Assembly: GCA_002682825.1 (NCBI GenBank)
Contig: NOKP01000020.1
Span: 62,001-126,000 of the forward strand
DNA: 64,000 nucleotides
Direction: 5' to 3'
Origin: Neonectria sp. B-13
Taxonomy: Eukaryota; Ascomycota; Sordariomycetes; Hypocreales; Nectriaceae
How positions within the stretch are numbered: the first letter of the stretch is position 1; each line of letters starts with the position of its first letter. The position numbers and the translations under genes were made by a program. The notes under the pieces are model-generated. The model did not search any database. It worked only from the letters and a program-made list of their open reading frames with translations, and was not told where the DNA came from. Of this stretch, positions 20,741 through 55,213 are shown piece after piece.

Positions 20741-20760
20741 ACGGTTTGGAATCGTGATCC
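20736..20760. repeat. Perfect 8-bp inverted repeat
   Basis: GGATCACG and CGTGATCC are separated by nine bases, just after the 220-bp repeat. It could be a hairpin, a terminal structure of that element, or chance. Confidence 0.6.
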
Positions 20761-20869
20761 ACCTGTGATTGGTAGGAAATTAGTGGGGGTAGGCATGATG
20801 TGCACGCACCACGTGACCGGGGTCAACCTGGGCCGTGACACTTTATACATCATTAGTATTATTGTATTT

Positions 20870-29404: not shown

Positions 29405-32390
29405 TTGTCATCGATGCCCTGGACGAGTCTTCAGACCTCGAAGGCTTGTGTGCATGGCTAGTTAACACCAACCTGTAGCTTTTCGACCATGTCCATTGCC
29501 TCGTCACCAGCCGGACAACACCCCAGATCGAGGCGACACTCAAAAATCTACGAGCTACTCAAGTTAGCATAGAGAACAACCAGGGGGATTCCGTTATAGC
29601 AAATTTCCTTGAGCATCACCTGAAATATGATGGGAAGCTCAATCGTTCCCCTCCCGAATTCATTGGTGAGATCCAAACGACTCTTGTCCAAGGAGCCAAG
29701 GGAATTTGCGTGGTTTGTCCATCAGCCATTTTTATTCAACACGTTCTAATGCCTGCGTTTGGTTCCAATGGGCAACCTGTATACTCAAGAGTCTACGCGT
29801 CTGTCGTTCACAGCACGCTGCGAGGAAGATTCTCAAGACATTACCCCCAACCCTAGACGATCTCTATGAGCGAATGTTGACAGCAATTCCTGACGAGGAG
29901 GACAAATGGGCAGTTTCTGTGATATTGAGATGGCTTAGTCTTGCGCGCCGGCCATTGAGAATAGAGGAAATCATTGACATCGTCGCCACCGATTTTCGCC
30001 AGGTCAACGACTATGTTGCGCAATCAGTTGATTCGTTTAAGGGCTGGCTGGCAGATCCACCTGTCGTGGGAGGAGCAATGTTCAGCAATGAATGACGCTT
30101 TATGGATGCAAATGCTATCCTGGAGATCTGCCCAGGCCTTTTTGAATCGGTGCCGGGGACATTTCCCCCGAACTGCCCGGAGTGCGGTGGCGATGCTCAT
30201 ATATTGGAGTCTCTCATTACTCCATGGCTGAGTATCTGAAATCTAGTCGAGTCTTACATGGGCCTGAAGCGAGGTTCGGCCACAATCCGTCCATGGCGCA
30301 CGCACGATTGCAGTAGGCTGTCTTGCCTACCTGATTGACGTTGGAAGCGAAGGCCGAAGCTAGATGGACGCAGATCGTCAACCATTCTTAGACTACCCCC
30401 TTCTTAATTACGCTTCCGCCCATTGGCTCCATCATTATCGAGAGAGATCTGCCAGCCCAGGAGAGCATGACCAGGTTCTCAATCTAGTGTGCCGTGGCCT
30501 TTCCAAAATTCTATTCACTTCTGGTGATGCGATTACCGCTGCCATGTCTAAGAGCAGCTTCGACACCCAGCCTGATTACTATAAAGACGGTTACCCATAC
30601 CTGACACGGAGATGCACCAACGGAACCGTGGGAAGTCCTTTGTATCATGCGTCACTCCTTGGACTTCGATTACTGACGCAATGGCTTCTACATGTCGGGC
30701 GCGACCCAAATGTTGAGGCGATATGCACGGTACGCCGCTTTGTGCTGCAACAAGGCGAGGGTGGGATGCTATTATAGGGGACCTGATTGAGAATGGGGCA
30801 GACGTAAATCTCGAGGACCATATGCAGGCTCCTTTGCACACTGCAGTAAGGCAAGGGTATGTCGATACTGTCGGGCACTTGCTTGAGGGGGGGGGGGCGG
30901 TGTTAATCAACATCTGCACCCTTCTTCTTGTAGCACGTTCTTGGGATTTTGGGCAGCCGAGCGTGAGCATGACCCGAGCCAATTCTGGCCTGACTTCCTT
31001 AAGAGTTTCGTTTTCAGACCATTCCCACCAGGCAAGCTAATGGCAAGCACATTTCACTGTTACATACTCATGAGCACGCCCCTTCTTTGCGCTATGAGCA
31101 GGGGAGATGTGAAAATCGCCGGCATCTTACTCAACTCTGGCGCGGATATCACCCAAGGGGGATTCTCCTTTTTCAGCTACCACCTGGTTATTGAGGGCCA
31201 GGTAGCACTTTTCTTTGTCCGAGCTGACGAAGAGCATAAACCTTTAGATTCTGCTTGTACTTCGTTTTACCAGGGTCATACTCGCGATTCGGACGGGTTT
31301 TGCGTTCCGATATATTCGATAAATCCGGCACTGATTTCAAAACTTCTCTCATACGGAGCAAAGGGGACGACTCAGACATTGATTCGATTAGGGGGCTCTA
31401 TTCACTCCTACAAGGACGAGAGTCTCCAGTCGCTGCTGGCACATTTAGGGAACATCGGCTTGCCGGACGAAGTTTTGGACACTGCGGTGAAGGGGTTCTG
31501 GAACAAAACGGAAGTGTTCAGCACAATCATCAAATCTCTTCCGGACGACTTCGCCGTTGAAGAAATGACGCTCTGTCATGCTGCTCGACATTGCTCTGCC
31601 GATGTTTGCGAGCTATTGTTTGAGCACTACCGCGTCTTACCCAATGAGAAGCTCCTAGTACATTGTGCAGCAAATATGCATTACGGTGTCGATAACCTCG
31701 GGTTTTTCTCAGAAAGTCGGCGACGTCCCTTAGCATTGGACATGTCATTATTTTAGCTGCTGCAAAGGACACCAGATTGGGAGCTACTTTGTTCAACATC
31801 CCAACGCATTATCAGCCGAGGCTCAGCATTGTAGAGGACCTCATCATTGCCGCAGCAGAAGAGAACAACGAAGTGGTTGTAGAACTACTTCTTCGATTTG
31901 GAACCTGCGCTAGAGATCAGCAAAGAACTACTCATCACAGCGTTTCGGTCGAGGCGGATTTCTCATGGCATTCCCGCGATGTTGCTCCTGATTTTTAACA
32001 TCACAAATCGCTTGCCTCCCAGTTATTGGGAGAGTTTTCTCGTACATTTGGCGGAAGCCCCCAGGCTTCCCGAGAAAAGTTTGAAAGGAAAAGAGGTTTC
32101 AACTACACTACTGATGTCGACGAAGACGTGCTTATTGCTGCCGCAGTTGGTGGTGCCGAATTACTGGATTTCGCAGTGTCCGCTTCCGGAGACGAAGTAC
32201 AAGCTACGTAAATGTGCAGAATATCCGTGTTACTAGCCTCTCCATGCGCTGATGAGGCATTCAGCGATCTTTTGGCGCTTCCCAGAGGAATGATTGTGAC
32301 GCCAAATGGCCTAACCTATGACGAAGTGCCCATTGGCATCTGTTATCGTCGAGGGGACGTCCATGAGGCGTTGGCAGCGATTAAAAGATA
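29405..32390 (+). pseudogene. NACHT-ankyrin NLR-like pseudogene
   Basis: Forward-strand fragments follow the order of a fungal NACHT-ankyrin protein. ALDESSDLEGLCAWL near 29415 is a Walker-B-like DALDE segment, then VHCLVTSRTTPQIEATL, then EFIGEIQTTLVQGAKG. In another frame, FQWATCILKSLRVCRS and KILKTLPPTLDDLYERML, RWLSLARRPLRIEEI form the typical post-NACHT winged-helix region. Ankyrin-like repeats follow from about 30640 (GTPLCAATRRGWDAI, LIENGADVNLED, PLHTAVRQGYVDTVGHLL) to 31200, with degenerate repeats to about 32390. Stops and shifts interrupt it repeatedly, including a run of G at about 30885-30898. The P-loop region was not found. These genes act in fungal self/non-self recognition; this copy is dead. 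Confidence 0.75.
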
Positions 32391-32399
32391 ACTAACAAC

Positions 32400-33013
32400 C
32401 TTCATGACACACCATCTGGTTGGACGGCTGAAAGGGGATTGTGGGAAATGATGTGGAAGGAATTGCAGCGCCATCGAAATATGGTTTCCGACTTTGTGGA
32501 GGATTATAATTATCAACTAGGTGGAAGTGAGGGAGTGAATTTTGGTATATAGCCAATCTCAATACAGTGTTTTGTAAACAAAGCTCATGCACCACGGCAG
32601 ATACATCGCGGTAGCCGAGAGCAGAGCGGAGGTGGTCTGACGACGCCTTCTCGTTGAACCCTTCACGTCGACCCCATTTCTCGAGGCGGACCTTGGCAGC
32701 CAGGACTTTTTAACTAGGCTTTAAAATTGAGATTTTCAGCTGCAATCTGGCCTCTAAGTCCACATCAGAGGATAGTAAGTCTCAAGGTGTTATCACTCAA
32801 CATCCTCACATGTACCTGTGTGTTGCCAGACTTAGCCTCTTGATACATGGTTGTTAGGATTGACAGGAGTGGTGTAAATGCACACGACTTCGGGCTTGTT
32901 CTCTCGCCTACCATCACTAATAAGGAAGCAAAATAGGACCCGAACTTGTAATGAAATACTGTTATTTAAGGTTCGAGCTATACCGTTCAACTCACGTCGA
33001 CCTCCCCTTGGGA
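32400..33013. other. Intergenic, no gene seen
   Basis: Contains the 3' flank of the acetoacetyl-CoA synthetase gene. No ORF or repeat is supportable. Confidence 0.5.
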
Positions 33014-35359
33014 TCACAGTTTCTCCAGACGCCTTGCCATCTTTTCAACTTCCACAAACTGGTAAAAGTAATCGAGGCTGGACGGGTTCGCCAACGCCTT
33101 ACTCGCCTTGATTTTGAAACCCGAGATAATCTGCTTAACAGGTAATTCGACCTTTTTATGGGTTGCAGTCATCTGGCTCAACGTCAGCGGTGTGTAAAAC
33201 AGATTAAAAGATACATTTTGTCTTACCGGTATCTCTGGTGCTTCGAAGATATACTTTGGTATGTGTCTCCTGCTTAGAGCCCGGCCAATAGCCGCCTTGA
33301 TCTCAGAGATAAGTCGGCGGGTGAGACGACAGCCATCACGCATGACCAAGAAAAGAATAACAGACTCGTCTGCGTCGTTTGGCCTTCTTTGAGCCACGCA
33401 CAAGCTGTCATCCACTTCCTCAGAAAAGGTGGCATCCATAACGGAGTAAATTTCAGAGCTCCCGAAACGGACTCCAGATGGATTCAATACGCCATCAGCT
33501 CGACCCATGAAATGAATGTTTAGCGTTTGGGGATGTATCATGCACAAGTCACCATGGGTCCAGGTGTGCTTAAAGCGAGCGAAGTAGCTTGAGTGGTACC
33601 TCGAACCTGGCAGAGCGGGTGCCAGGGATGACGAGTCTCCCCAAAAGAAGCATGGCATGTTTGGAAATGCTGCTGTTGCGACAAGCTCACCCGCGGTCCC
33701 TAGCGGCACAGGCGTCCCAACTTCCTCCCCAGCGGAATCGTAGATGGATATAGGGACACCTAGAGACGGACCCTGAGTCCCGCCCACGTACACGGGAGAC
33801 AAGGGGTTACCTGTGCCAAAACATCCTGCCTAATAATAACGTTAGGAAAAGCTTCACAGTCAATCCAAAGGATGGGGGACCCATCTACTCACAATGTCTG
33901 TTCCACCGGACTTATTTATCAAGTGAATCGAAGAGGGGAATCCGAAGTCATATACCCACTCGAACAATTGGTCAGAGAGCACCATCCCGGTGGACGTGAT
34001 CGTTCGGAGCGCACTGAGGTCGGCTGTATCCCTGGGACTAATGCCGCTCTTTGCCATTTCCTGCATCCATCGCGGGCTTGTACCAAACACAGTGACGCGT
34101 TGCTGACCAAGAATGTCAACCATGGTTGTCTTGTCTGGCATGAAAGGCGATCCGTCATATGCTACAATCCGAGCGCCGAGGATCATGTTGGCTATTTGGA
34201 GAACGTACATGATCCATCCCGTAGTCGTGTATTGAAAGACGGTGGAGTCGGCTGACACGCAATCGTGGAGGCGCCCTTCCTTGATGAGGTTGAGAAGTAC
34301 TCCTCCAACAGAATGGACGATAGGTTTCGGTGTGCCCGTCGTGCCAGAAGAGTAGCATATGAGGAGCGGGCTATGGAATGGAACACGAACAAAAGGCGGG
34401 CGTGCATTTGGAGGAGCCAGAGAAAGAAGGGTCGACAATGTCTCGGCACCAGAAATGGCAGACAGATGCGCAGGTTTCTCAACCCGTTGCATGACGATCA
34501 GGCCAGACAGATTCTTGCACGACTTCATCCCCTCCATGACTCGGCCCATCTTAGCAGTGAGGTCCACCGTCTTTCCATTGTATACGGTAACATTGTCAAA
34601 GAATATAAGCTGAAAGGAGTCAGTCAAAGTTGAGGGTGAGACAGTATGTTTTGTAGTGTCTTGAGCTTGCCTTGGGGTCAATCTGCACACTTCTTTGCAA
34701 GATTCCGTCGACACCCATGTCAGTGGACGCACTGACAAAGATAGCACCTAGCCATGTGGTCGCCAGAAATACGAGCAAAGTGTGGATAGAGTTGGAGCCG
34801 ACAACTATCACCCGATCACCTTGTCGGACACCGCGAGCGCTGAGGGCTGCTGCCAGACGGGCAGCATCTTTGCGCAACGTAGCCCACGAGAAATGGCGCA
34901 CGTCTGTGTTGCCCTCGCGTATCTCTGTGAAAGAAATCTTGTCGTCTTCCTTTCCAACGACGCCTTGATAGCTTGTAGGGTCGGAGGCGTTGCGGGAATA
35001 GAGGATGTTTTCCGCCCAATTGAGACTGACGCCAGGGAACCAGCGAGGGACACTATCAATTTCGGCCGACTCGTCGACAACACTGGAAGGAAATCCGGTG
35101 TAGATTATATTTGCCCAGTGGAAAAGCTGTGCGTAGAAGGCGATGCGATTCTTGGTGGAATATGTGTAAAGATCTTGGAATGACTGGACACGTCAGCTTC
35201 GGCACCTCAATGACGTTACTCAACATCGTGGATCTGGCGCCTACAAACCTCAAGCTGGATGTCTTGGTTCTTGTTTATGGTCTGTATAAAACAGTGCATC
35301 TGAGTCGCCTTTGGGTTGCTTGACTCCCAGAGCTTGCGAGGCATGATCTGACCCATCAT
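33014..35359 (-). CDS. Acetoacetyl-CoA synthetase
   Basis: Activates acetoacetate to acetoacetyl-CoA with ATP (ANL adenylating enzyme family). Five exons fit in frame: 35359-35249, 35183-34671, 34609-33893, 33829-33227 and 33172-33014, giving 700 residues, close to the family length. Start MMGQIMPRKLWESSNP is characteristic of this enzyme. Other markers are FQDLYTYSTKNR, ENILYSR, the P-loop-like YSSGTTGTPKPIVHS, the TTTGWIMY motif, INKSGGTDI, ADGVLNPSGVRFGSSEIY and the end segment KKVELPVKQIISG. Intron 2 has a GC donor (GCAAGC) and AG acceptor. The last intron has a length divisible by three and no stop, so automatic annotation could retain it. It is tail-to-tail with nothing and lies 0.6 kb from a P450 on the same strand. 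The enzyme would complement a leucine-type degradation route that yields acetoacetate. Confidence 0.92.
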
Positions 35360-35976
35360 CTTGTCACCAACGTCCAGATCTGGATGCAAAAAAAGATCAA
35401 CATCATGGCAGGCACGTTGAGCTTTAATAATAAATAAGTGAAAGAACGGGAGATATTACGCTAAGCCAATGCCGAGCGGGCCGCGGCGCTAGGCGACCAA
35501 CCGGTCTGCTCTTGAGATGGAGCTGAAAGCAGCTCCGGCGGCTGATTCCTCGGGTTTTCGGTAATAAGCCCAGGCAAAAGTGGTCCGAGACTTGGCGGAA
35601 TTCTGTCTCAGTTGGACGTCCGCATGCATCATTGGCGGAACAACAAGACCGGCCGCTTTTGCAGCGCATAAGATGAGCGAGCAATGTGCCGAGATCTATA
35701 CAGTGACGGAAACTGTGCTGGAAATGGCAGAAAGCATTTATGTCGTGCCGGGCAGGAGTGGAATTTAGACGTTGACGAGCGTGTCCTGCAAAAGAACAAG
35801 CGGGTTGTATACCCTGAACCAAACTATTGTATGTCTTCACACGTCCCAATCAATCTTACATGGCTAAGTGGAATTCTGCCTTTTATTTTGTGTTTCGTTT
35901 CTTCTTAGGTAAAAAGGCAATTTTGTTATAAGCCAATGATGGCTAAACTAATAACTCGTCCTAATATCATTGCTCT
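35360..35976. promoter_or_regulatory. Upstream region of acetoacetyl-CoA synthetase
   Basis: About 600 bp between the synthetase start and the P450 stop, both minus strand. No convincing ORF; a GC-rich patch (GAGCGGGCCGCGGCGC) occurs at about 35476. Confidence 0.4.
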
Positions 35977-37981
35977 CTATTTGCCGTGGTCAAACGTCAT
36001 TCCCTCTGGAACCTTGAGCCACTGCAGAGTCTCTGGGTGCAGATATTTCTGGCAGTTCTGAGCTTCTTTCCTCATAATAGTTGCTTTGGCCTCGGATCGT
36101 GGCTCGATAATAGCTTGGAAGTCTGCTGGTTGGACGGTAATACCGCCGACCAAATCCTCCGGGTCATAAATCATAGGACGCCCATCTTGGCCTTTGGCAG
36201 GAGAAAAGTCAAACCCCCAGAGGAATCGCGAGATACCCAAGAAGAGAGATCTCTCGGCAATGTGGATGCCCTGACAAAGGCGACGTCCTGCGCCAAAAAC
36301 GAAATTATCACGCTTTGTGACGTCTCCGACGGCAGATTGATAAAGAGTCGTGTTGTCGCCCTTGAAACGGTCCGGATTGAACACGCGCGGGTTTGGGGAT
36401 CGTTTTTCGTCCATATGAATTGACCTAAATTGTGATTTATCAGACTTGTATGCCATCAACCTTTGGAAATATAATACGGACCAGACGTTATTGATGACTG
36501 TAGCTCCTTTTGGGATGTAGTATCCCTGATAAGTGTCCTCCTTGATAAGAGCATGAGGCACACCAAGGATGACTGTGGGCATCCAGCGGACACTTTCCTT
36601 GATACAGCAGCGAATGAAAGGCATTTGGTCATAGTCTTCCATAGTCGGCAGGCGATCGGGACCAACTACACGGTCGATTTCTTCTTGGCCTCTCTTTTGG
36701 ATTTCAGGCCAAATGAGAATCGCCAGGATGTAGCCATAGAGTGTGGAAGCGGTTGTATCTGATCCAGCTTCGAGGAGCGACCCACTAATGTAACCTGCAG
36801 CGTCATCGGAAAACTTCTCATTCAACTGCGATTTGTAAATGTCGTCGCAAAAGCATGGCTGTTAGGTGTAGTAGTGTTAGTAAACGATCTGTCCCGGATA
36901 CTGGTGAGATAAAATGAAGCACATACTAGTCCAGTGCCGTCAACGATAGCCTTCTTCGCCCTCATCCAGTGGGCTACATATAGCTTCTTCTCAACCTCAT
37001 GCAAACGCTTTGCATAGTTGACATTTGGCGCCAGGAAATCCGGGAGCTTTTGTAGGACAGGGTACAGATCCGCTAGCTGGGCACTTGAACTCCCGGATAA
37101 CTGGCCCCATTTCTCGAAACACTAGGAGAAGTCAGTTGTAATGCGCACAAGAGAAAGTCTGCAGCGGATAAAGTACACGAAAGAGCTGGAGCAGATTTGG
37201 ATCTTGGTTATTGGTGCATCGGTAGCCAAATATCATCTGGGTAGAGAGAGAATAGGTGAAACGTCGAATGTGGAGCAAGAAAAGTTGCGGAGTATCGAGT
37301 AGATCTGCTAAAAGGACCTTGTTCTCGAGGTCTTGGTAGGGCACATAGGTTACGGCAGCGGTGATGTTTAGGGCTTTGTGGATCATGCGATGAATCATGC
37401 GCCAATTGTTGCCATATCTCTGTCATCTGTGTTAGCCGCGGAAAGAGAAGCTGATAGCTAACACTCCTTACCATAACAACAAGTCTGAGGTTGCCACTTG
37501 CAATCCGCTGGCCGATGAACATATCAGGTCTGTCGGAGTACACGCCGCTCTTTTTATCCAAGAGGTCTTTGACCGTCTCATCAGAAGAGAGGACCACGCA
37601 AGTCTTAGTGCCGAGGATGAGTGAGTAGATTGGTCTGCATGGCTATTGTTAGCAACAACCGGGGGGGGGGGGATGCTTGTCACAGGTCAAAATCTGGGGT
37701 AAGATTACTGACCCATATTCTTTTGCCCACTTCTGGAACTGCAGATGGGGTCTTTTCGTCGGCATCTGGAGGAGCCAATGAGACTCCAGGGCTTTTAGGG
37801 GCGGGTTCAGGGGCTGGACGTAACTTACCAGGTGCAGGTTGCCAAGAAGTGGAATCGTTGGTGGGCCAGGAGGGAAGCCATGGGGCCGCCGGCCAACTCT
37901 GCTGACTTTGTACAGCAGCAACAGGGCGGAAGCAGCCACCAAGCTGAAGACGATCAAGGCGAAGTTTGAGACGAGAGCCAT
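35977..37981 (-). CDS. Cytochrome P450 monooxygenase
   Basis: Membrane-anchored haem monooxygenase, about 520-530 residues over roughly eight exons. The N-terminal anchor (FALIVFSLVAASALLLLY) is followed by a proline hinge FPPGPPTIPLLGN. Further family motifs are the I-helix AGSDTTAS, ExxR in KESVRW, PERF-like NPDRF and the haem loop FGAGRRLCQG with the Cys ligand. All introns read by hand keep the frame, including one in NNVW/SIHMDEKR. The general shape resembles fungal O-methylsterigmatocystin-oxidoreductase-like P450s, but that gives no substrate. Intron 2 contains a run of about 12 C. The gene starts 0.7 kb from the E1-beta gene and is transcribed divergently from it, so they may share regulation. 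Confidence 0.9.
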
Positions 37982-38685
37982 CTTGTGGTTAGGTCCGAGA
38001 CTATGGGTTTAGTCGACCTAAAAACGACTGCGACCTTTATCACCGCTGACTTTATACGTGAACTATCTCTGTCGCTGTCGTGACGATGGCTAGGGTATCT
38101 AGGGGACGTCTGGGGTGCGTGCAAACGCGGGGAAGCAGCCCCGCCAGGAGCGGGCGGCAAAGAGACTAAAGCAACTATTATTCATCGTCAACCAACCGCG
38201 CCCTTGCCTTGTTCTAAATCCGGTAATGCCGATGTCAGAGTCTCGTGCCCGAAGCCGAAGCCGTTGCGGAGCCCGAGCCCGAGCCCGAGCACGAGAGACA
38301 GGCTTCGCACTGCTTCACGTAATTACTGTGAAGCTTGCTTATCAACGAGCGCCGGCCATGCCATAGCCGTCGCGCGGCCAAGCAGCCGCGGATCAAATGG
38401 CCCGCCCTGGGAGCCGAGAGAGTGCTATGTCCCATGCTACCAACCACGCGCTGCCACCCTCGGCACGAAAGAACCCCCAATGCAAGCAGAGTATTGAACT
38501 GCCATTGAGATCTGTCACTCGATGCCACGGGCCTCACGGCTGTGATCGGAGACGGCGCTTGTTCTAAGATGACAATGCTGTTGACGCTGCCTCATCAATC
38601 TCGTCCGCAACTCTCTTCTCCTTTCCCCTCTAGCTTGTCTCGATTGCGTGTTGCTGCCCCCAGTTGATCGATTGAAGTCTCGAGG
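37982..38685. promoter_or_regulatory. Shared divergent promoter, P450 / BCKDH E1-beta
   Basis: A 700-bp region between two divergent ATGs. It contains a CCCGAG/GCCGAA hexamer array (38245-38296) and CG-containing triplets compatible with Zn2Cys6 factor binding, such as CGG and CCG pairs. No gene was recognised. Confidence 0.55.
38245..38296. repeat. CCCGAG-type hexamer array
   Basis: Reads GCCCGAAGCCGAAGCC, a short spacer, and then AGCCCGAGCCCGAGCCCGAG. It lies in the P450/E1-beta divergent promoter. Related arrays occur at 52261, 56612, 47718 and 48611. Confidence 0.8.
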
Positions 38686-39994
38686 ATGGCGTTGCTACGA
38701 AACACCATGTTGCCATCATTTAACTGGACGAAAAGCCAGTTGCTGTCTTCTTGTCGGTCTTATGCAACCCAGACCGCCCAAGGCTCGGCTCCCCGATTAA
38801 ATCGACCAATTGACTTCGGGACCACTCGGCTTCTTCACCACGACCCGGAAACACTAGCGTCTGCGCCCGAGTTACCCAACGACGGGCCATCAACAAGGCT
38901 GAACCTGTGCCAGTCGGTCAACTCAGCCTTGCACACGGCCTTGGGCTTGTCGGATCGCGTCCTGTGTTTCGGCGAAGACGTGGCCTTTGGCGGAGTCTTC
39001 CGATGCACTACGGGGCTGCAAAGCGAGTACGGAAGACAGAGGGTCTTCAATACGCCCATCACAGAACAAGGCATCGTCGGAGTCGCCATTGGGGCTGCTG
39101 CCGAGGGCATGAAACCGGTCGTCGAGATCCAATTTGCCGATTACGTTTATCCAGCTTTCGATCAAATCGTCAATGAGGCGGCCAAGTTCCGTTACCGTGA
39201 AGGAACCTCAGGTGCCAATCTTGGAGGAATGGTGATCCGCATGCCTTGCGGCGGCGTGGGGCATGGAGCGCTGTATGCGGACCTGGGACTTGGGACCTGT
39301 AACTCCGAGTTGTAATGTTGATGCTGACCAGTGCTACAGATACCACACGCAATCACCCGAGTCTCTTTTTTGCCATGTTCCCGGCTTTCGAGTTGTCGTG
39401 CCACGGTCGCCTTCTCAGGCAAAAGGTCTCTTGCTCGCAAGCATCCTGGACAGCAAAGACCCCACCATCTTCCTCGAACCGAAGATCCTCTATCGCGCAG
39501 CAGTCGAGATGGTCCCAGATCAAGCCTACACACTCCCTCTCGGAAAGGCAGAGGTCTTGAAACCAGGAAATGACTTGACAATCATCTCATATGGTCGGCC
39601 GCTCTATACCTGCCAGGCAGCTATAGAAGCCGCTGAAAAGGACCGGCCGGGGCTGAGCGTCGAGCTAATTGATCTTCGAACAATTTACCCCTGGGATCAA
39701 GAGACAATCCTAAACAGCGTGAAAACGACCGGCAAGGCCATTGTTGTCCATGAGAGCATGGTGAACTATGGAGTCGGTGCGGAAATTGCTGCTACGATAC
39801 AGGACCGCGCATTCTTCTCCTTGCGTGCGCCAGTGAAGAGAATCGCCGGCTTGACAACCCATACTGGCCTCTCATATGAAAAATACATTTTACCAGACGT
39901 TGCTCGTATGTGTACGGTCATTTCACTATTTATCAAGATACTGACTGCTTTCCCAGGTGTTTACGATGGCATCCTTGAGCAGATTGAACATTGA
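38686..39994 (+). CDS. Branched-chain alpha-keto acid dehydrogenase E1 beta subunit
   Basis: Beta subunit of the thiamine-diphosphate-dependent E1 of a mitochondrial BCKDH complex. Exons 38686-39272, 39340-39905 and 39957-39994 give 396 residues. The N-terminus is rich in Ser, Arg and Leu with few acidic residues (to about residue 30, [10 protein letters not shown]), consistent with a mitochondrial presequence. Family signatures are LNRPIDFGT, the E1-beta [13 protein letters not shown] segment, [77 protein letters not shown] and [15 protein letters not shown]. The resemblance is to the branched-chain rather than pyruvate E1-beta. Adjacent genes encode E1-alpha and E2, so all dedicated subunits are clustered; E3 is not in the window. 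Confidence 0.92.
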
Positions 39995-40403
39995 GCGACT
40001 TCAACTTTGCACATGACACAACCTACGAGATCAACTACCCCCGTCACCAAACTTTTCCATGAATATGACTTGTATGGCTCAATGTTGATTTGTCTGAGAT
40101 TTGTCGGGAAGCAGTTAAATTTGTCAAGCAGTTTAATTAGAAAAGTCGACTTGTCCACGCTTCCTTTCCTTTGGTCAACGAAGGGTGTTGGTCTTATGTT
40201 TGGTCCGGGTCGATGAGGCGCACTGGTAGACAACAATCTTCATAACCCTTTAATAAGATCATTCACTACACAGTGTCTGTCGGCACATCATCTGATGCAA
40301 CTAACTCACCCTCGATGGAGCGGACAGCCAGATACCAGTCTGTCGGCAAATGAACAGGAATGCTTCTCAGTCTAATCCAAGTATTTACCCAAACTGGTAC
40401 AAT
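39995..40403. other. Convergent intergenic region E1-beta / E1-alpha
   Basis: About 400 bp between two convergent genes. Presumably both 3' UTRs; no other feature seen. Confidence 0.5.
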
Positions 40404-42018
40404 TTATAGCGCATCCAACCCCCCAACATGGTTCTTGACGTCGTACTCAGCTGGGTACTTCTTCATGAGCTTCCGCAGATTCTCCCGCTGATACTCAGCT
40501 TCTTCAGTCAACTCGGCGTAAACATCTGTGAAAATCTCTTTGAGCGCCGGTTTCTTCTCCTTCTCGGCGGCGGTCAACTCTCGAATGACACTTCTACGAA
40601 TATCTTTTCTGGTATGCACATCGAGCTCGTCGGACCAGAGCCCTTTGCGCGCCAGGTATTGGCGCAACCTAGAGATGGGATTACCTTGCGGACCTTTCCA
40701 GAACGCAATGTCATCGGGATTTCGATACGCCGTGCTGTCGTCGCTCGTGCTGTGGTGGGAAATCCTGTAGCTCATGAATTCGAGAAGGATGGGGCGCCCT
40801 TCTACTGCTCTTCGCCTGGCCTCCTTGGTAGCCTCATAAACGGCAAAGATATCGGTTCCGTCAACCCGAAGAGCCTCAATGCCGTAAGCCATGCCGCGGC
40901 AAGCAATGCCGTCTCCTCGGTATTGCTCCTCGGCCGGTGTTGAAATAGCATAGCCATTGTTGCGGCAGATGAAGATCACCGGGCTTTCCATAGTCGCGGC
41001 CATATTCAATGCGCCATGGAAATCGCCTTCACTGGTAGCTCCCTCACCAAAATACGTAACTCCAACTCTGGGTTCCCGAGTTGAATCCGCCTGGTCCTGT
41101 AGCTTCAAGGCATAAGCAGCACCCACAGCATGGGGAATTTGCGTTCCGAGGGTAGACGCAACGGAATGCTAGGGCCAAGTCAGCCTTTTGTATGATATTT
41201 GACATGGGATATCAGCTGCATGAGTGAGTCGGAGGAACGAAGGCTTACAATTCCGGTCTTCTCTCTTCCCGTGTAGTGATTCGGCATGTTCCGGCCCTTT
41301 CCAGGGTCATTGCAATTGGCAGTTAATTGGCTCATAAAGTCCTTCAACTTGAAGCCGCGCTGTAAGAACACACCTTGTTCCCTGTATTGGCAAGTAATGA
41401 TGTCGCCTTTCCCAAGAGCAGCGGCTGATCCAGTCATGATGGCCTCTTCGCCCGCAGAAACCTGTGGTTTGTTGCTTAGCTTGTATCCTCGGCTCTTCCA
41501 AGAGTTTTGAGCAACCAACCATGTAAAAGCTGACACGGCCGTGTCTTTGTGCGTCGAACATGATGCTGTCCATGATGTTGACTGGGAAGAAACGAGTCAG
41601 CCAATGATTGCACTCGTCGTTGCTGAGGACGCACTCGTAAGCATATTCTTGTACCACTGGACGATGTCGGCGTCTGGAATCGCGGTGCTCAACTGGGACG
41701 GATCTTCGATCTCGTTGCTTGCATTCAGGATGCTATAGGTGGGTATTGGCGCCATTTGAGATGGCATCACCCATTCCATTTTCGAGGTTAGGGGACTCTT
41801 GATTGCGCCAGGGAAAGGTGGACTGCTGTCTCTTAGCAAACCATCGACGATGTCGGCGTCAAGGTCCAGGGTTTTGTTTCTTACCGAGTCGCCTGGGCCG
41901 ACGTGCTTGAGGTCGATAAGCAGCGCCCCCAACTAGGCGGAGCCCGTCGGTGACAATAGTCTGTCAGTGCTCTTGGCCGAAATCGCTGTGCCAATCTTGA
42001 CCGGACCATTTCAATCAT
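40404..42018 (-). CDS. Branched-chain alpha-keto acid dehydrogenase E1 alpha subunit
   Basis: Catalytic, thiamine-diphosphate-binding alpha subunit. Exons 42018-41885, 41831-41635, 41581-41520, 41461-41249 and 41168-40404 keep frame and give 456 residues. The chosen start (ATG at 42018, or 42009) yields an Arg-rich presequence, MVRSRLAQRFRPRALTDYC then RCLSTSS, as expected for mitochondrial import; the first exon would be missed if only the long ORF were followed. Signatures include GAIKSPLTSKMEWV, IPTYSILNASNEI, QRHGRVSFYM, CQYREQGVFLQRGF, the ThDP motif GEGATSEGDFHGALNMAAT to CRNNGYAIST, and YRISHHSTSDDSTAYR, whose serines correspond to the phosphorylation loop. It is divergent from E2 across 350 bp and convergent with E1-beta. 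Confidence 0.92.
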
Positions 42019-42368
42019 TAGTGAGCTGAGAGCGTTTGGTTGACTGATGACAAACCCCCAAAATAAAGCCTTTTCAGATATAAGAACGTTTATAGAATGA
42101 AAGGAATGGCTGTTCGTAATGTGGCCCGTCCAAATATGTATCTTTCTATCCTTGCTGTGGAAATAAGAATTGCTCCGGCTTCAGACAATCCAAGACCGCG
42201 GCAGCAATGACGGGCCGCGGCTGAGCCCGGCCCGCCGAAAGGAACCCCAAGGACAAGCGCACGGGATTCTTGGGAATGAAAAACATACTTTACTCGCTTC
42301 GACTTTGTCATATCCCAGACTTGCATCATTCTACCCCCTTCTTGGTCCTTTTCGAGTCAAGATTCACC
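42019..42368. promoter_or_regulatory. Shared divergent promoter, E1-alpha / E2
   Basis: 350 bp between divergent ATGs of two subunits of one complex. It includes a GC-rich patch at about 42195-42240 (GACCGCGGCAGC, GGGCCGCGGCTGAGCCCGG) with CGG/CCG triplets that could be Zn2Cys6 sites. Such an arrangement favours stoichiometric expression. Confidence 0.55.
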
Positions 42369-44347
42369 ATGTTTGGCCTAAGACGGTCCTGCACACGAAC
42401 CCGGCTTCAGCCACAGCTGCTCCGGCCTCGCCCCGTCAGCATCACCCGCCCCAATGCCAATCTTATGCAGACACGCTCTCTCCGAAGCTCTCGGTGTCAC
42501 CTGGCAATCAAACCATACCTACTTGCGGATATTGGCGAAGGTTCGTTACCCATTTCCCGTCCACCAAAGATCAAGCATTGACCGTCACAGGAATTACCGA
42601 ATGCCAAATCATATCTTGGGAGGTGAAGGACGGCGATGAGGTCGAAGAATTTGATCCAATCTGCGAAGTTCAATCAGATAAAGCTTCGGTCGAGGTGATT
42701 GGTTTCCCGGTGCATCGCTGAATGTGAAAGAAGTTTGAGGCACCAAAGCTAACGACCCGGCTGTCTCACAGATCACATCACGCTTCAGTGGTACCATCCA
42801 CAAACTTCACTACAATGTTGGTGATGTTGCAAAAGTCGGCTCTGTACGNNNNNNNNNNNNNNNNNNNNNNNNNNNNNNNNNNNNNNNNNNNNNNNNNNNN
42901 NNNNNNNNNNNNNNNNNNNNNNNNNNNNNNNNNNNNNNNNNNNNNNNNNNNNNNNNNNNNNNNNNNNNNNNNNNNNNNNNNNNNNNNNNNNNNNNNNNNN
43001 NNNNNNNNNNNNNNNNNNNNNNNNNNNNNNNNNNNNNNNNNNNNNNNNNNNNNNNNNNNNNNNNNNNNNNNNNNNNNNNNNNNNNNNNNNNNNNNNNNNN
43101 NNNNNNNNNNNNNNNNNNNNNNNNNNNNNNNNNNNNNTTTGATCCAATCTGCGAAGTTCAATCAGATAAAGCTTCGGTCGAGGTGATTGGTTTCCCGGTG
43201 CATCGCTGAATGTGAAAGAAGTTTGAGGCACCAAAGCTAACGACCCGGCTGTCTCACAGATCACATCACGCTTCAGTGGTACCATCCACAAACTTCACTA
43301 CAATGTTGGTGATGTTGCAAAAGTCGGCTCTGTACGTGACGCACTTGAACCTGGGCAGGTCTTGACACTAACGAGCGCAAGGCCCTTCTTGACATGGACG
43401 TTCAAGGGGACGAAGGAGAACCGGAACAAGCCGCTGGTGCAGCATCACCAGAAAAACCCGAAGCTATGTCAACTCCAGGGCTGACAAAGAATGCAACACA
43501 GCACCATGACACTCACATCGGCCCATCCAGTTCCGCAACGACTGGCATGGCGGGAGGACAAGACAAGCCGGCCGAGACAACCCAGTCAGACTACAAGGTA
43601 CCGCTCTCTCCTATCCAGAAACGGATGTTTGAGTCTATGACGAAGTCGCTGTCGGTGCCGCACTTTCTCTACACTCATGCGGTAGATCTGACAAGCGTCA
43701 TGGCCCTCCGCAAGACGGCATTGTCCGATGGCTCCCTCTCGTCCCACTTGCAAGATGAAGCGGGATCTGTCACTAAAATCACACCTCTTTCATTTGTGAT
43801 CAAGGCTCTGTCGCAAGCTCTGCTCTCCAACCCAATCCTGAACTCGGTCCTGGATACCGAAAGCGATCCAACGGAGCCGCAGCTGATAATCAAGCCGTCC
43901 CACAATATCGGCGTGGCGATGAATACGCCGCGGGGGCTTGTAGTGCCAGTGATACGAGATGTCCAAAACCATTCCGTGGCGTCACTTGCGAAGGAAATCT
44001 CCAGAATGGGTAACCTAGCCAGGGCGGGTAAGCTGAGGCCCCATGATATGAAGGGCGGCACGATCGTGGTCAGCAATATTGGAAGCATTGGTGGACATGC
44101 AGTGGCTCCGGTAATTATGACGCCCATGACGGCCATTGTTGCAGTTGGGAAGGTAGAACAAGTCCCTGTATTTGAGACTGGCGAGGACGGCAATGATGGC
44201 ATTGTGAAGAGAGATCGAGCAGTCTTGAGCTGGAGTGCCGACCATCGGGTGCTCGATGGCGCGACGGTGGCGAGATGCGCTCAGCAGGTTGAGAAGTGGC
44301 TGGCGGATATTAAGGGACATGATGTCCAGGCGGTTGTACTGCCCTAA
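42369..44347 (+). CDS. Branched-chain dihydrolipoyl acyltransferase (E2), no visible subunit-binding domain
   Basis: E2 core of the BCKDH complex. Using one copy of the duplicated segment, exons 42369-42540, 42591-42694, 43260-43331 and 43382-44347 fit in frame and give 437 residues. A presequence-like N-terminus is followed by a lipoyl domain (PYLLADIGEGITECQ to VGDVAKVGS) with the lipoyl-lysine motif SDKASVEI. A low-complexity linker of about 75 residues follows. The catalytic domain begins VPLSPIQKRMFESMTKSL and includes PHFLYTHAVDL, NTPRGLVVPVI, GGTIVVSNIGSIGG and the active-site DHRVLDG near the C-terminus. The peripheral subunit-binding domain that normally sits in the linker (TPAVR...G.G..GR) cannot be seen. 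A 289-base run of N interrupts the gene at 42849-43137. Confidence 0.88.
42650..42848 (+). repeat. 199-bp segment duplicated across the N gap (left copy)
   Basis: Identical by eye to 43138-43336. It contains the end of E2 exon 2, intron 2 and exon 3. Because each copy ends or begins exactly at the gap, the simplest reading is that two contigs overlapping by 199 bp were joined with Ns instead of being merged. Confidence 0.9.
42849..43137. other. Assembly gap (289 N)
   Basis: Unsequenced placeholder within the E2 gene, flanked by identical 199-bp copies. Probably no real sequence is missing. Confidence 0.9.
43138..43336 (+). repeat. 199-bp segment duplicated across the N gap (right copy)
   Basis: Second copy of 42650-42848. 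This copy continues correctly into E2 intron 3 (GTACGT donor at 43332) and the long last exon, so it is the one to use for the gene model. Confidence 0.9.
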
Positions 44348-44749
44348 ATGAATAAATAAAAGCGGAACTTTTAGGAAAAAGAATCGTGGTTTACTGCGAA
44401 ATATTAAAATCCCATACGTTATGTTAACATAATCATAATATTCAAGGTGAAGGGGAAAAAAAATTGAAAATAACTATCAGCGGAAGCAGTCATTGTGATT
44501 TCAACCGTCGTGTTGACAATGGAAGAAAGGCGCTGGCTGTGTTTGAAGTATGACTGGATCTGGCTAGATAAGTTACCCCGCATCTTCTACACAACGCATC
44601 CACAGCGACTAACTTAGCCGCTACTATCCGTATTAGCTGTGCTTTTGATTTTCCGGGGCTACCGGCGTACCCCATACTTTTGCAAACCCTCCACGGTTCC
44701 AAGCTTTGGGAAATCCGCCTCCTTTCATATTGACAAAACGACCCTTGAG
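44348..44749. promoter_or_regulatory. Region between E2 and the Zn2Cys6 regulator
   Basis: 400 bp carrying the E2 3' end and the upstream region of the regulator. The regulator frame stays open upstream to about 44636 but contains no ATG there, so this part is taken as leader. Confidence 0.5.
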
Positions 44750-47224
44750 ATGGCATGCAAGACCTGTCGCGCCCGCAAGATTCGATGCGACCAAGCGCGT
44801 CCAGTCTGCCAGAATTGCAGGCTGCGCGCGAGCCATTGCATATATGCTGGCGAGAGGCGCATCCGTCGTAGCACACATGATGGCTTCTCCACTCGTCGTC
44901 CCTTTCTGTCCGCCACATATCCTCGGACGCCGTCGACAGCCCCCGAGAGCCGGCCTCGTCCAGCAGCGATGGCTGAGGATGGCGAGCCCAGCGAGGAATG
45001 GATATGCGTTGGTGGCATCAATCCCTTTGATAACGGCACCGACACTGCCGTGAACGGCTCAGGCGACGGAGCACACGTGCAGACAACGCTGCAAGCGCGG
45101 CAGAGTCAGACTCGCGACGTGAACCTGGCCGTACAATCTCCGTACAACCCAGACCTCGATCGTCCGTTTGATCTATTGGATCGAATTCTCGAAGGCGACC
45201 CTGGCGTGGAGGTCAGAGGATGTCATCCCGCCGTGTGGATGCGTACCGAAGACGGGGATGAGTACACGGGCCCGTCATCCGGCATCGCCACCATATCTGA
45301 CTTGGGATTGAACTGGCTTCATCAACATGTCCCCGATTCCGACGAGTTGTGCGAGTCCATCCAGGACATCCGGAACACGCTTCTTGCACACCTGAGGCAA
45401 GCAAAATGCACGCCTCTCCCTTGCCCCTCGTCTCCTTCGACTTACTCGACGGGCGATCGCTTGAAGACGATACCCCCTTCGGTTATCAAGAAGTACGTTG
45501 ATGCTTACTTCTCAACTGTCCAGACCATATTTCCCGTGCTGGACCAACGTCAGTTTGAGCTTCAGCTGGCGCGCTTTGGCACCGACCCAAGCTGCAAGTC
45601 ATGCTCTTGGAAAGCCCTGCTCAATGCCGTCTTGGCTTCAGGCTGCCGAGCAGCACTGTCCCACGAGACGGCCGAGTCATTCCAAGAGTCGGGTCGCGAA
45701 TCTTGGGGGTACTTCCAAAACGCTCTCTCTTACGAATCCAACATTGTTCACAGCGCCACAGACCTGATGGGGGTCCAAGCATTCGCTGTCATGACCGTCT
45801 TCGCTCAAGGGCTGTCCAGCCCACAGCGACTAGAGTACACCCTGTGCTCAATCGCTTCACGGCTCGCTCAAGGCATCGCACTGAACCGCCACCCGTCTCA
45901 AGAATGGAATTTGAGCGAAGAGGAAAACTTACACAGGGCACGCACGTTCTGGGTCATATATTGCCTCGACAAGACTATCAGCCTGCGCTGCGGGAGGCCC
46001 TCAGCCCTAGATGATGACGAAATCAGCTGCCCCTTTCCTCGAGGCGTCCGCTTAACCCATCATTGCGATTCCAACAGCAGCTCTGCGGAAGAGGTTGCTG
46101 ACTTTGATTGCTTTCTGTCACTGGCCAAGTTTGCCCGTATCTGTGGCGCCGTGTCCCGACGACTCTACTCAGCTACCGCGCTCAATATGCCTTTTGCTCA
46201 GCTCTCCGGTACCTTGGAACGCCTCATGCAGGACCTTGAGGCATGGAAACAAGCCATTCCACCCGACATTCAGCCTGGGATCCCATTTGGTCGGATTGCC
46301 GATTCCAAGGGGTTGACTCGGTTCCAGCTTGTCGCTTTACATTCCTCTTACTACTATATCATATGTGCCATGTGCCGTAGGTTCACGCCAATGTTCACAA
46401 ACGAAATCCCCTCGCCAAACACTACTCAGAAGACAATGAACTTAAATATAAAGGCAGCGAGAGCCATAGTACTGCTCACCAAACATCTTGACGTGGAAAG
46501 CTTCACTCCTGGATGGTAAGTCGCTGGATGTGCTTTCTTGATACGAATCACAGCGAAAACAAATTGCGCTCTCCTCCAATAAGCTCATTCAACTGACATG
46601 TGTCCCGCTAGGCTCGGCTTCTATTATCCCTTCACGGCCCTTACCACACTTTTCGCCCATGCAGTCACCAGCCCTAACGACACGTCAACTCGCAATGACA
46701 TCGCATTAATGGAAGTTGTCGTTGGATTCTTTGGTCGGCTGGAGTACATCACCTCTGGGGAAGCCGCCTTTACAAAGACGACTGAGTTTGTGCGTCTGGC
46801 TAGGCGCATCGCCGACCGATGTGCAGATGCCGCACGGTCCGAATCTCATCGGCGAGATTCCCGGGACAGTGCCGCGGCAACAAACACAGCCGTCCCGCCG
46901 GCGGCTCGGCCGGAGATGGACGCAATGCCGTTGGATCCGACCAAGGAAATTCGGGCTGGGGACAGAAGCGGCTTCAATATGCTGCCCGATGAACTCCTGA
47001 GCAATGGAAATGGTGACGCCGTCCCTGGGAGAGATGCCGCGTCTGTCCGCCGGCCCGCCGCAGAGCCGGCCGCTGGCAATACCAGAAATGGAAGTCACCA
47101 TGACGATATTTCCTCCCAAGCCCTGTTTACGGATGTCATGAACCTCTTAGACAAGAATGGGTTCGATGTCACTGATGACAACTGGCTCGAGAACTGGACT
47201 CCTCCTCAGCTGACTGGTTCCTAA
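44750..47224 (+). CDS. Zn2Cys6 transcription factor, likely regulator of the BCKDH cluster
   Basis: Exons 44750-46515 and 46612-47224 give 792 residues. The Zn2Cys6 cluster is at the extreme N-terminus: MACKTCRARKIRCD, then CQNCRLRASHC, with a basic stretch ERRIRRS after it. The Fungal_trans domain runs from about residue 245 (IKKYVDAYFSTVQTIFPVLD) through SWKALLNAVLASGCRAAL, FQNALSYESNIVHSATDLMG and FWVIYCLDKTISLRCGRPS to about residue 530. The C-terminal 150 residues are low-complexity and end in an acidic segment (TDVMNLLDKNGFDVTDD), a possible activation region. The start is the only in-frame ATG before the zinc cluster; a further upstream exon is possible. It lies immediately after E2 on the same strand, so a cluster-specific role is a reasonable inference. 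Confidence 0.9.
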
Positions 47225-47796
47225 GTTCCCATGGAGGTATCATAACGGTCTATGGGTCACACGTGTGCTACTGTACAAACACACATACTCATCCATTCCT
47301 TTCAAAGAGTACAGCGCCTAAGACTTGTCGTGTGAACGAATACCACGAACAGCATGTTTTCTCTCGCTCTGGTATACCAGGCTCTGAAGAGTCGATGGCA
47401 GCGGAGCACTCACGTTGGATTGATGCAGCGATGCACTCACGTACTCGAAAGCTGAAAGTTATGGATTTCCACGGCACTTGACGCTTCGACAGTCAGTTTC
47501 TATCGTGTATCATTAATGGTGTGCACAGAAAGGGGCAAAGTCTCCTGAAAATTAGGCATTGGCTCTTTCCGACACGTTTATTCTTCTCTTCTATATACAT
47601 ATATATTTAGAGAGAGAGAGAGTGTGTGTGTGAGAGAGAGAACGAGTTCCTAGTTCAAAACAGTTCTGACAGTTGCAACAAGACTTAATCATTTCCCATG
47701 CATTTGTTAAGCCGAAACGGGCCCGATTCGGGGCCCGTCCCATGCCCGAACCCGAGGATATGGACCAGCCAATGAAATCAACATAAGTGTCCCACA
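47225..47796. other. Convergent intergenic region with microsatellite and CCCGA motifs
   Basis: Contains AG and GT dinucleotide runs at about 47610-47641 and, at 47718-47757, several CCCGA/CCCGAG units (GGGCCCGATTCGGGGCCCG, CCCGAACCCGAG). GGGCCCG-ATTC-GGGGCCCG is nearly palindromic and may form a hairpin. No gene was recognised. Confidence 0.5.
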
Positions 47797-48396
47797 TTAC
47801 ATTGCGGCCAAATCAGGCATGCCCCTCGGTCCAATTTCCTTGCGCTTCATCAAAACCTTTTCGTCTTCTCCCTTGCGAAGTGCGTCAATCAAGGCCTCGG
47901 CGTCAAAATCAGCGCCGATGGGGTTCTTAGAGAATTCGTCACTCAGCATGAAAGCCGTTGCCTTTTCCACTGTGTCGAAATTATCAACTTGGGTTTCTAG
48001 CATGTTACCATCGGGGTCCTTGTAGTAGATGCTGGTGGTGGGTCCGTGGTTGACGCACCAGACAGGGGAAATGCCCCGGTCCTTGCGCTGGCGATACGAC
48101 AAGAGGAGATCTCCCAAAGTCTTGAAACTAAAGGCGATGTGCTCTAGGCCGCACGAATTGGGCCTTTTGGCTTCCGTTTCCGGGATCCCAATCAGCGCGA
48201 TGCGGTGGTGCTCTTCGTCGAAGGTAATGAACGAGATCATGTCATTGGCATATGTGACATTGCCACCAAGAAAGCTGGTGTAGAATTCTTGCATGGGCTT
48301 CAGACTGCCCGTCCTTAGGACAACATGAGCCAACTCAGCAGGTGGAAGGACCTTGGAGCTGGGAGCATCAAAATCGGGTGTGATTGATTGCGCCAT
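47797..48396 (-). CDS. VOC-family protein, extradiol dioxygenase-like
   Basis: Single-exon gene of 199 residues with the vicinal-oxygen-chelate fold. Candidate metal ligands are His24 (AELAHVVLRT), His86 (CGLEHIAFSF) and Glu134 (DPDGNMLETQVD), the 2-His-1-Glu set of extradiol ring-cleaving dioxygenases. The segment YYKDPDGNMLE is the usual VOC signature. Fungal proteins of this shape are often annotated as biphenyl-2,3-diol 1,2-dioxygenase-like, but the fold also covers isomerases and glyoxalases. No signal peptide is seen. A neighbouring FAD hydroxylase and a fumarylacetoacetate-hydrolase remnant make an aromatic ring-cleavage role plausible. Confidence 0.8.
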   Translation of the reverse strand: MAQSITPDFDAPSSKVLPPAELAHVVLRTGSLKPMQEFYTSFLGGNVTYANDMISFITFDEEHHRIALIGIPETEAKRPNSCGLEHIAFSFKTLGDLLLSYRQRKDRGISPVWCVNHGPTTSIYYKDPDGNMLETQVDNFDTVEKATAFMLSDEFSKNPIGADFDAEALIDALRKGEDEKVLMKRKEIGPRGMPDLAAM

Positions 48397-49233
48397 GTCG
48401 GGTAGTGATATCCAAAGACTTGAACGATGATGTATGGAAAGAAGGGTAACTGCTCTGCTGAAGACAGAACGCGAGCCATATGTACCTACACAAATACGTC
48501 TAGATCAAGAATTTGACGTCATACTGGACTAAGACCATGCGACCCCATCAGTGGCATTGGCCATCTCCCCGAACTCTCCTTACCCCCATCCCCCTCCCCC
48601 GCACCCCGGTGATGGAAGCCGAAGCCGAATCCGAGGAATCTACGGTCAAGAGTTTGGAAGAACGCGGTTATTTTTCCTTTGTTGAATTGAACAGCGATCA
48701 TCATGGGGTCGAGGCCGCGCCGCGTGGGCATTTCATCCTCGATCTCTGTACCATCTTCTGCTAATCCTTCTTTTCTCCCCCTTATTACAATTCTTGTCGC
48801 ATTAAGTAGCTGGTTGCAAATGAAGTCATACGAAATCTCTTGTTTTTTCTTATCCAGAGGTTGGAAAAGCATCTATCTTCGAGGGACATGAGGGTCTACA
48901 AGGTGGCGGCACCGATGTTGCCACTGAGCTAGCTAGAGAGCTTGAGTGGCGACAGCCCTTTAACAGGCAACCTAGATGACGCTGTTCATAATTAGTTACT
49001 AGTATCTGGATGTCCGCTTCATCGAAGGCGAGTTGCTGCTGGCGCAGAGTCAAAAAAACACAGTTTTCTTCCCAACTTTGAGCATTTTAAACCCCAATGC
49101 TTCCACGGTTGTCAAGCTATTCATAATAGGCACTCGGGTTGCGTTATGTATTGACATGAGATGGACCGTATGACAACTCTAACCGCAACTCGGAGACCAT
49201 GTATCAGAACTACATGCCAGACGAGCAAGCGCT
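48397..49233. promoter_or_regulatory. Upstream region of the VOC gene
   Basis: Contains a short GCCGAAGCCGAATCCGAG array at 48617-48636, about 220 bp upstream of the VOC start. An ORF on the minus strand at 48519-48872 has no recognised similarity and no support. The 3' end of the large regulator gene follows. Confidence 0.45.
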
Positions 49234-51983: not shown

Positions 51984-52259
51984 TGCGGAGCACCCGACTA
52001 GGGAGGGTGTGAGTTCTCGGGGTGGTATGCAGAGTATCGGGTGCTAGAGTTGCGTGGTAGCACAGACGTGAATGAAATCATAAGTGGCGTGGCTAGGAAG
52101 TGCTTGTTCAGGACTGGAGTGCGACCGCGGCTTGGACGATAACCGTCTACTTACACACCAGTCTTTTTGTCTGAGACGTGATCAAAAAGTGAACTCCCAC
52201 GTGAAGTTCTGCCATGGTTGCCACCGCTGGTGTCGATATCAGGATGTGTCGATCTTACG

Positions 52260-52296
<37 letters not shown>

Positions 52297-52453
52297 GTGG
52301 GTGTACGCAATGTGAGGTCTCGGCCGAGAGGCTCAACCTACCTGGGTAGAACCAACATGCAGTGGCGAACCATAGAGGAAGGACTTTCCACTCTTCAATT
52401 GAGCTAATAGACTAGTAGGAAACTCTCATGGCAGCTGTAGGAGTGCTGAGCTG
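51984..52453. promoter_or_regulatory. Upstream region of the CTF1-like regulator
   Basis: 470 bp containing a perfect CCCGAG array (52261-52296). No gene supported; ORFs across the array are artefacts of its repetitive composition. Confidence 0.5.
52261..52296. repeat. (CCCGAG)6 array
   Basis: Six perfect head-to-tail copies of the hexamer CCCGAG, about 280 bp upstream of the CTF1-like regulator start. Confidence 0.95.
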
Positions 52454-52747
52454 ATGATGACTGCCGCCTCCGCTATCCCAGACCCGAGGATGTTGAGGAT
52501 GGAGTGTTTCGTAAATGGGCAGAAGAGGCAGTCAACCCTAGTTGAGGATCAAATATTTGACATCCCAAAGGTCCTCGAGCACTTAACTCAAGGAAAGACT
52601 GTGCGTAAAGGAACTGTAATTCTAACTGGTACTCCGAGTGGTGTAGCAGCGTTCATGAAACCCCCACAATGGCTGCAGGATGGGGATGTTGTGGAAGTCA
52701 GCGTCAATAAGATTGGGCGCATTAGCAATAGAATTAAATTCGAGTAA
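52454..52747 (+). pseudogene. Fumarylacetoacetate-hydrolase-family C-terminal fragment
   Basis: The frame encodes LVEDQIFDIPKVLEHLTQGK, then GTVILTGTPSGVAAF, and QDGDVVEVSVNKIG to the stop. This is the C-terminal quarter of the FAH fold, including the conserved VILTGTPSG loop. Family members are 280-330 residues; the metal-binding Glu-x-Glu and the N-terminal half are absent, and upstream DNA is regulatory or repetitive. The ATG at the start gives an unrelated leader. It is probably the remnant of a ring-fission-product hydrolase that would have followed the dioxygenase, unless it is the last exon of something disrupted upstream. Confidence 0.75.

Positions 52748-53357: not shown

Positions 53358-55213
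<1,856 letters not shown>

Follow-up and report, generated by a model that had tools for sequence, protein, structure and literature searches.

A second, clustered set of branched-chain 2-oxo acid dehydrogenase-type genes in Neonectria sp. B-13, with an E2 that has no E1/E3-binding domain

Genes at the locus

The DNA analysed here (the window; 64,000 nucleotides) corresponds to positions 62001-126000 of contig C40 in the 60.9-Mb, 123-contig assembly of Neonectria sp. B-13. Near its middle lie genes for the subunits of a branched-chain 2-oxo acid dehydrogenase (BCKDH)-type complex. The order is acetoacetyl-CoA synthetase (AACS, -), cytochrome P450 (-), E1-beta (+), E1-alpha (-), E2 (+), and a Zn2Cys6 regulator (+), followed by a VOC-superfamily protein and a second regulator (Table 1). 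An earlier note, made from the bare sequence, had described E1-beta, E1-alpha, and E2 as consecutive and as adjoining the AACS, the P450, and the Zn2Cys6 factor, and Pfam matches at each place agreed with this. These were AMP-binding at 33860-34744 (-) for the AACS (the neighbouring exon, 33014-33826, gave no family by itself); the P450 family at 35977-36858 (-); Transket_pyr (PF02779) and Transketolase_C (PF02780) at 38671-39991 (+) for E1-beta; E1_dh (PF00676) at 40404-41165 (-) for E1-alpha; lipoyl (PF00364) at 42170-42718 and 2-oxoacid_dh (PF00198) at 43352-44344 (+), both above cut-off, for E2; and Zn_clus with Fungal_trans at 44621-46516 (+) for the first regulator. The divergent promoters of the earlier description were also present, between P450 and E1-beta and between E1-alpha and E2. 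Read without statistics, they contained several CGG/CCG pairs and no convincing common regulator motif.

The AACS scored 551.3 bits on TIGR01217 (cut-off 520.9) and 607.9 on the subfamily model NF002937, below the latter's cut-off of 639. Among solved structures, E1-alpha and E1-beta came closest to the BCKDH subunits in 2bff and 1dtw, of the human enzyme; the alignments spanned nearly the full mature length, and the phosphorylation loop of E1-alpha (HHSTSDDS) was present. Such close similarity points to BCKDH-type chemistry. E1-alpha, E1-beta, and E2 all begin with basic, Ser/Arg-rich N-termini, judged by eye with no targeting predictor, which would fit a mitochondrial location for the complex. 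The P450 may resemble the fungal phenylacetate hydroxylases (CYP504). A run of N, with an exact duplicate on either side, interrupts the E2 gene; since a second copy of the locus, on contig C92, is continuous over the same stretch, the interruption is an assembly artefact.

Table 1. Features of the BCKDH-type locus (window coordinates)
Feature	Position	Strand	Remarks
Acetoacetyl-CoA synthetase (AACS)	33014..35359	-	700 aa, 5 exons; TIGR01217 above cut-off; 97% to Dactylonectria estremocensis P0241
Cytochrome P450	35977..37981	-	543 aa, 7 exons; PF00067; CYP2R1 is best solved chain
P450/E1-beta intergenic region, divergent	37982..38685		704 bp; coordinates from gene models
BCKDH E1-beta	38686..39994	+	396 aa, 3 exons; N-terminus mitochondrial-type by eye
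BCKDH E1-alpha	40404..42018	-	456 aa, 5 exons; N-terminus mitochondrial-type by eye; HHSTSDDS loop retained
E1-alpha/E2 intergenic region, divergent	42019..42368		350 bp; coordinates from gene models
BCKDH-type E2	42369..44347	+	437 aa, 4 exons; lipoyl and catalytic domains, without E3/E1-binding domain
Run of N within E2	42849..43137		exact 199-bp duplicate on either side (42650-42848 = 43138-43336)
Zn2Cys6 regulator	44750..47224	+	PF00172, PF04082
VOC-superfamily (glyoxalase/extradiol dioxygenase-like) protein	47797..48432	-	PF00903; weak catechol 2,3-dioxygenase match; 3b59
Second fungal regulator	49234..51770	-	PF04082 in 1 of 3 open stretches; Zn2Cys6 motif farther upstream by eye
Block duplicated on contig C92, inverted	31715..52463		blastn

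Paralogy, linkage, and a second copy

A genome-wide search, as the earlier note had proposed, located other BCKDH-type genes on three further contigs: E1-alpha on C94 (51% identical to that of the window), E1-beta on C13 (60%), and E2 on C1 (45%). Thus, the window genes are not the only ones of their kind. Quick trees with SH-aLRT support only were built for E1-beta and E2 from the best 120 proteins of each listing (proteins beyond these do not count as negatives) and rooted on the C13 and C1 proteins. The window E1-beta fell in a clade of 56 of the 122 sequences (SH-aLRT 100) and the window E2 in one of 51 of 122 (SH-aLRT 99), in a tree where long branches meet. The C13 E1-beta was nearest to those of Blastomyces, Emmonsia, and their kin (up to 69%), and the C1 E2 to those of a mostly Dothideomycete group. 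Since the C13 and C1 proteins lie outside the window's clades, the C94, C13, and C1 genes probably form the housekeeping set; by the same placement, the window E1-beta was rejected as the housekeeping copy. As the earlier note had supposed, the window encodes a second, dedicated BCKDH-type complex; its genes belong to a fungal paralogue family. The same gene order was not seen at a housekeeping locus of related fungi, where clustered pairs fell in the paralogue clades, with housekeeping loci not systematically checked. In A. terreus, the three E1/E2 locus tags are far apart (PMC7842363). Because Penicillium sequences nest beside Sordariomycete sequences in both trees, the topology suggests that the set has moved between fungal lineages.

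Protein matches carry no genomic context, so we judged shared contigs from equal contig size, which is weaker evidence for chromosome-sized contigs, and from locus tags. Leaving out the window, and among the matches listed, E2 and E1-beta of the window clades lay on one contig for 22 of 50 E2 sequences. Eleven pairs had comparable locus tags. Eight were two apart, so that one gene fits between (Zalerion maritima, Fusarium duplospermum, F. ambrosium, F. oligoseptatum, Fusarium sp. AF-6, Pseudogymnoascus sp. 03VT05, Penicillium angulare, and Neocosmospora mangrovei), two were one apart (Trichoderma virens FT-333 and Exophiala xenobiotica LTR72), and one was 138 apart. The nearest E2 and AACS proteins came from Dactylonectria estremocensis and Thelonectria olida, both Nectriaceae. 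The window AACS belonged to an 11-member clade (SH-aLRT 99), and six of its ten other members shared a contig, by equal size, with E2 or E1-beta sequences of the window clades: D. estremocensis, T. olida, P. pulvis, P. lividum, Penicillium sp. IBT 35674x, and Zalerion (60,662-bp contig). A matching AACS therefore appears, from these matches, to travel with the clustered BCKDH genes in several fungi. Such linkage in separate lineages would point to a catabolic unit and provides a gene-level hypothesis for the role of the second complex.

The earlier note had set the cluster at 33014-47224. The genes within those limits are as it described, whereas the duplicated unit is longer and also takes in the VOC protein and the second regulator. 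By blastn, this block recurs inverted on C92 over 20.7 kb; identity is 93-98% for the most part and falls to about 87 and 89% in two short stretches. Two inserts in the comparison carry transposase domains of Tc1/Tc3 and Tc5/pogo type. On C92, E1-alpha and the start of E2 fall in N. Eight gene pieces (AACS, P450, E1-beta, the catalytic part of E2, VOC, one stretch of the first regulator, and two of the second) were stop-free there, with dN/dS values of 0.096-0.419, all below 1; the E2 piece was the highest of the eight (0.42), and E1-beta stood at 0.10. In the alignment, the C92 VOC gene had one inserted and 30 deleted bases, the P450 had three deleted, and E1-beta lost 64 bases to N. By AACS identity (96.4, 95.7, and 94.6%), C40 and C92 each differ from D. 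estremocensis about as much as they differ from one another.

Several other observations were made on the window and the assembly. Positions 1-8000 of the window are AT-rich (GC 0.22-0.28 vs. about 0.42-0.56 elsewhere); such blocks resemble islands of repeat-induced point mutation. A DDE_Tnp_1_7 transposase lies at the edge of this block (8290-9267), and another, 75.6% alike in DNA (L041, 53-2293), lies beside the C92 block, adjoined by a Helitron-like gene. Positions 11360-22368 may be another small metabolic cluster, with a regulator that has a Gal4-type dimerisation domain, a sugar transporter, an SDR, and an epimerase/NmrA-like gene. Open stretches at 29670-31756 with weak winged-helix and ankyrin matches run up to the limit of the duplicated block and may belong to an NLR-like fungal gene. 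On C114, C54, C50, C55, C57, C63, C70, C74, and C105, pairs of equal-score matches lie inverted on the same contig, probably palindromic assembly errors; the paired places sum to contig size + 1 on C114 and + 200 on C54.

Loss of the E2 binding domain

The 2-oxo acid dehydrogenase complexes are swinging-arm machines in which a binding domain of E2, the peripheral subunit-binding domain (PSBD, PF02817), anchors E1 and E3. No PF02817 match, even at E<=1, was obtained in the window E2 or in its relatives from D. estremocensis (P0001) and T. olida (P0002), and P0003, P0004, and the E2 from C1 scored 47.9-52.6 bits for the domain. In an alignment of 44 E2s, hand-chosen from the 120 listed (P0016, P0040, and P0118 were left out), P0001 and P0002 had 13 unrelated residues in the 36-residue PSBD slot. 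The domain was present in the other 42; it measured 36 residues in 41 of them and 27 in the remaining one. The window E2, itself outside this alignment, is 94% identical to P0001. Among the 120 listed E2s, five gave no PF02817 match (P0001, P0002, P0016, P0118, and P0040); P0016 and P0118 retain part of the domain, and P0090, a near relative of P0040, has it. A regular-expression count (17 of 122 E2s without the motif) was discarded as too strict in favour of Pfam and the alignment. Since P0003, with its PSBD, is sister to the trimmed group (support 91), the loss is, on this tree, derived. AlphaFold models, which derive from the same sequences as the alignment, gave residues 126-180 of P0001 as coil (pLDDT <50) and predicted helices at 192-200 and 219-232 (about 90) in the control P0004, which has a PSBD.

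Two further explanations for the missing domain were rejected. It is not a gap artefact, as a single open exon (43382-44347) encodes both the linker and the catalytic domain, and the C92 copy, which has no gap at this place, is trimmed in the same way. Nor was a PSBD supplied elsewhere in the cluster: an exon-wise genome search, which an intron-split domain could escape, placed its three PF02817 matches outside C40 and C92 (two on C1, one on C46), and a six-frame motif search of the window, with a pattern so strict that genuine domains are missed as well, found no PSBD. In an exon-wise search likewise, E3 (lipoamide dehydrogenase) had no match on C40, and its matches on other contigs were all below the family cut-off. 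Therefore, the set that the earlier note had called complete does include E1-alpha, E1-beta, and E2, whereas its E2 is without the E1/E3-binding domain and C40 gave no E3 match. Mammalian E2p and E2b carry a PSBD, and eukaryotic E2o does not, its E3 being held by the N-terminus of E1o (PMC9681731, PMC8146983). In the open-licence PMC literature searched (titles and abstract beginnings), no description was found of a BCKDH E2 without PSBD or of a fungal AACS-BCKDH cluster. An E2 of this kind whose partner genes are under purifying selection allows the need for the anchor to be tested.

Proposed function and comparison with known complexes

We give an even chance to the reading that the locus encodes a second BCKDH-type complex, mitochondrial and dedicated, that is inherited in one block together with an AACS, a P450, and a regulator of its own and acts as a catabolic module of unorthodox assembly. 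E1-alpha and E1-beta would decarboxylate a branched or similar 2-oxo acid, the acyl group would pass to the single lipoyl domain of E2 and be released as acyl-CoA by the E2 catalytic domain, and the lipoyl group would be re-oxidised by the shared cellular E3. The carbon would end partly as acetoacetate, which the AACS paralogue would convert to acetoacetyl-CoA. With the AACS as linked partner, and with neither a PKS nor an NRPS in 27 of the 28 window ORFs of at least 200 aa, the use would be catabolic, leucine-type carbon being the simplest case, in a module that may have moved between fungal lineages and been doubled here. In the earlier note, the AACS was thought to reactivate leucine-derived acetoacetate; the tie between AACS and BCKDH was strengthened by the contigs shared in other fungi, whereas the substrate is something we infer. 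Because E2 has lost the PSBD, the usual holding of E1 and E3 would be impossible. The domain might be replaced through mixed cores with the housekeeping-like C1 E2, which has it; alternatively, E1 might contact the linker and core directly, as in the 2-oxoglutarate dehydrogenase E2. That this is a private, mobile fungal BCKDH whose E2 borrows the domain through hybrid cores or has evolved its own holding of E1 and E3 is put forward tentatively, at less than even likelihood. If true, the 2-oxo acid dehydrogenases would have a new, naturally occurring architecture.

Several findings weigh against a catabolic module inherited as a block. No isovaleryl-CoA dehydrogenase or methylcrotonyl-CoA carboxylase was found among the window ORFs scanned, and the VOC protein and P450 fit other chemistry. 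Among the matches listed, 28 of 50 E2s had no E1-beta on the same contig, the pair 138 locus tags apart is that of F. solani-melongenae, the two Penicillium pancosmium sequences lie on contigs of unequal size, and a second E1-beta of D. macrodidyma (P0144) has no E2 on its contig. Four of the ten other AACS-clade members (P0243, P0244, P0245, and P0295) matched no BCKDH sequence in contig size, and the listed AACS of Thozetella and Plectosphaerella lie on another contig and outside the AACS clade. To these are added the E1-alpha and E2 start lost in N, and the VOC indels, of the C92 copy.

The main rival is aromatic-ring catabolism, in which the P450 and an FAD hydroxylase would hydroxylate the ring, the VOC protein would cleave it, the BCKDH-type complex would turn a short 2-oxo acid such as 4-hydroxy-2-oxopentanoate into acyl-CoA, and the AACS would recover acetoacetate. 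The VOC protein does lie within the duplicated block, and an FAD aromatic hydroxylase, with FAD_binding_3 (PF01494) and Rng_hyd_C in two open stretches, is found 0.8 kb past it (53301-55210, +). In A. terreus, BCKDH E1/E2 genes were strongly up on salicylate in a report that leaves open whether they act on 4-hydroxy-2-oxopentanoate (PMC7842363). However, the hydroxylase is outside the block, and the VOC protein matches the ring-cleaving catechol 2,3-dioxygenase family at only 21.5 bits (cut-off 320.2), and we regard this scheme as unlikely. Supply of isovaleryl- or isobutyryl-CoA to a secondary metabolite, as the earlier note had suggested, would suit a dedicated paralogue that has a P450 and a regulator beside it, and a paper title ties a second bkd cluster of Streptomyces avermitilis to avermectin. 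This suggestion found no support, since no PKS, NRPS, or terpene synthase was present in 27 of the 28 window ORFs of at least 200 aa, a scan of the window only that would miss a synthase elsewhere, and the linked partner is a consumer of acetoacetate; we consider it improbable.

It is more doubtful still that the trimmed E2 has ceased to function in a complex, with the cluster on its way out or E2 given to another task. The lost PSBD and the highest dN/dS of the eight pieces would accord with decay, but E2 retains its lipoyl lysine and catalytic SADHR..DG, which stand in invariant columns of the alignment, and has no stops, the same trimmed form occurs in the window and the two named species down to 82% identity, and the E1-beta ratio is low. 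A separate question is whether C92 is another haplotype or a contaminating strain and the cluster single-copy, which is compatible with any of these readings and which we rate as possible, if rather unlikely. C92 is a small contig with gaps, C40 and C92 are about equidistant from D. estremocensis and each other, and other assembly oddities are present. Yet similarity to the window ends at 31715 and 52463, and the edges of the C92 block have transposon genes near one and a run of N with a repeat-like stretch near the other. Even so, the paralogy, linkage, and PSBD results would be untouched.

The reading as a second catabolic complex can be set beside four known systems. The bkdFGH genes of Streptomyces avermitilis, reportedly a bacterial operon linked to the polyketide avermectin, are likewise said to be a second, clustered BCKDH set; an AACS link like that of the window cluster is not known for bkdFGH. 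With the BCKDH complex (1dtw and 2bff for E1), the window set shares the E1-alpha/E1-beta alignment, the HHSTSDDS loop, and the lipoyl and acyltransferase domains of E2, but its genes form a cluster and are paralogues of the housekeeping-like set, and its E2 has no PSBD. The eukaryotic 2-oxoglutarate dehydrogenase E2 (E2o, DLST) is also without a discrete PSBD (PMC9681731); it partners an E1o with an E3-binding N-terminus, whereas the window E1 is of the alpha/beta family and is not known to have such a segment. The clustered paralogues of Fusarium, Penicillium, Zalerion, and Dactylonectria macrodidyma, like the window set, fall in the same E1-beta and E2 clades, have linked genes, and partly fall in the same AACS clade; in contrast to the window E2, those of their E2s that were aligned retain the PSBD.

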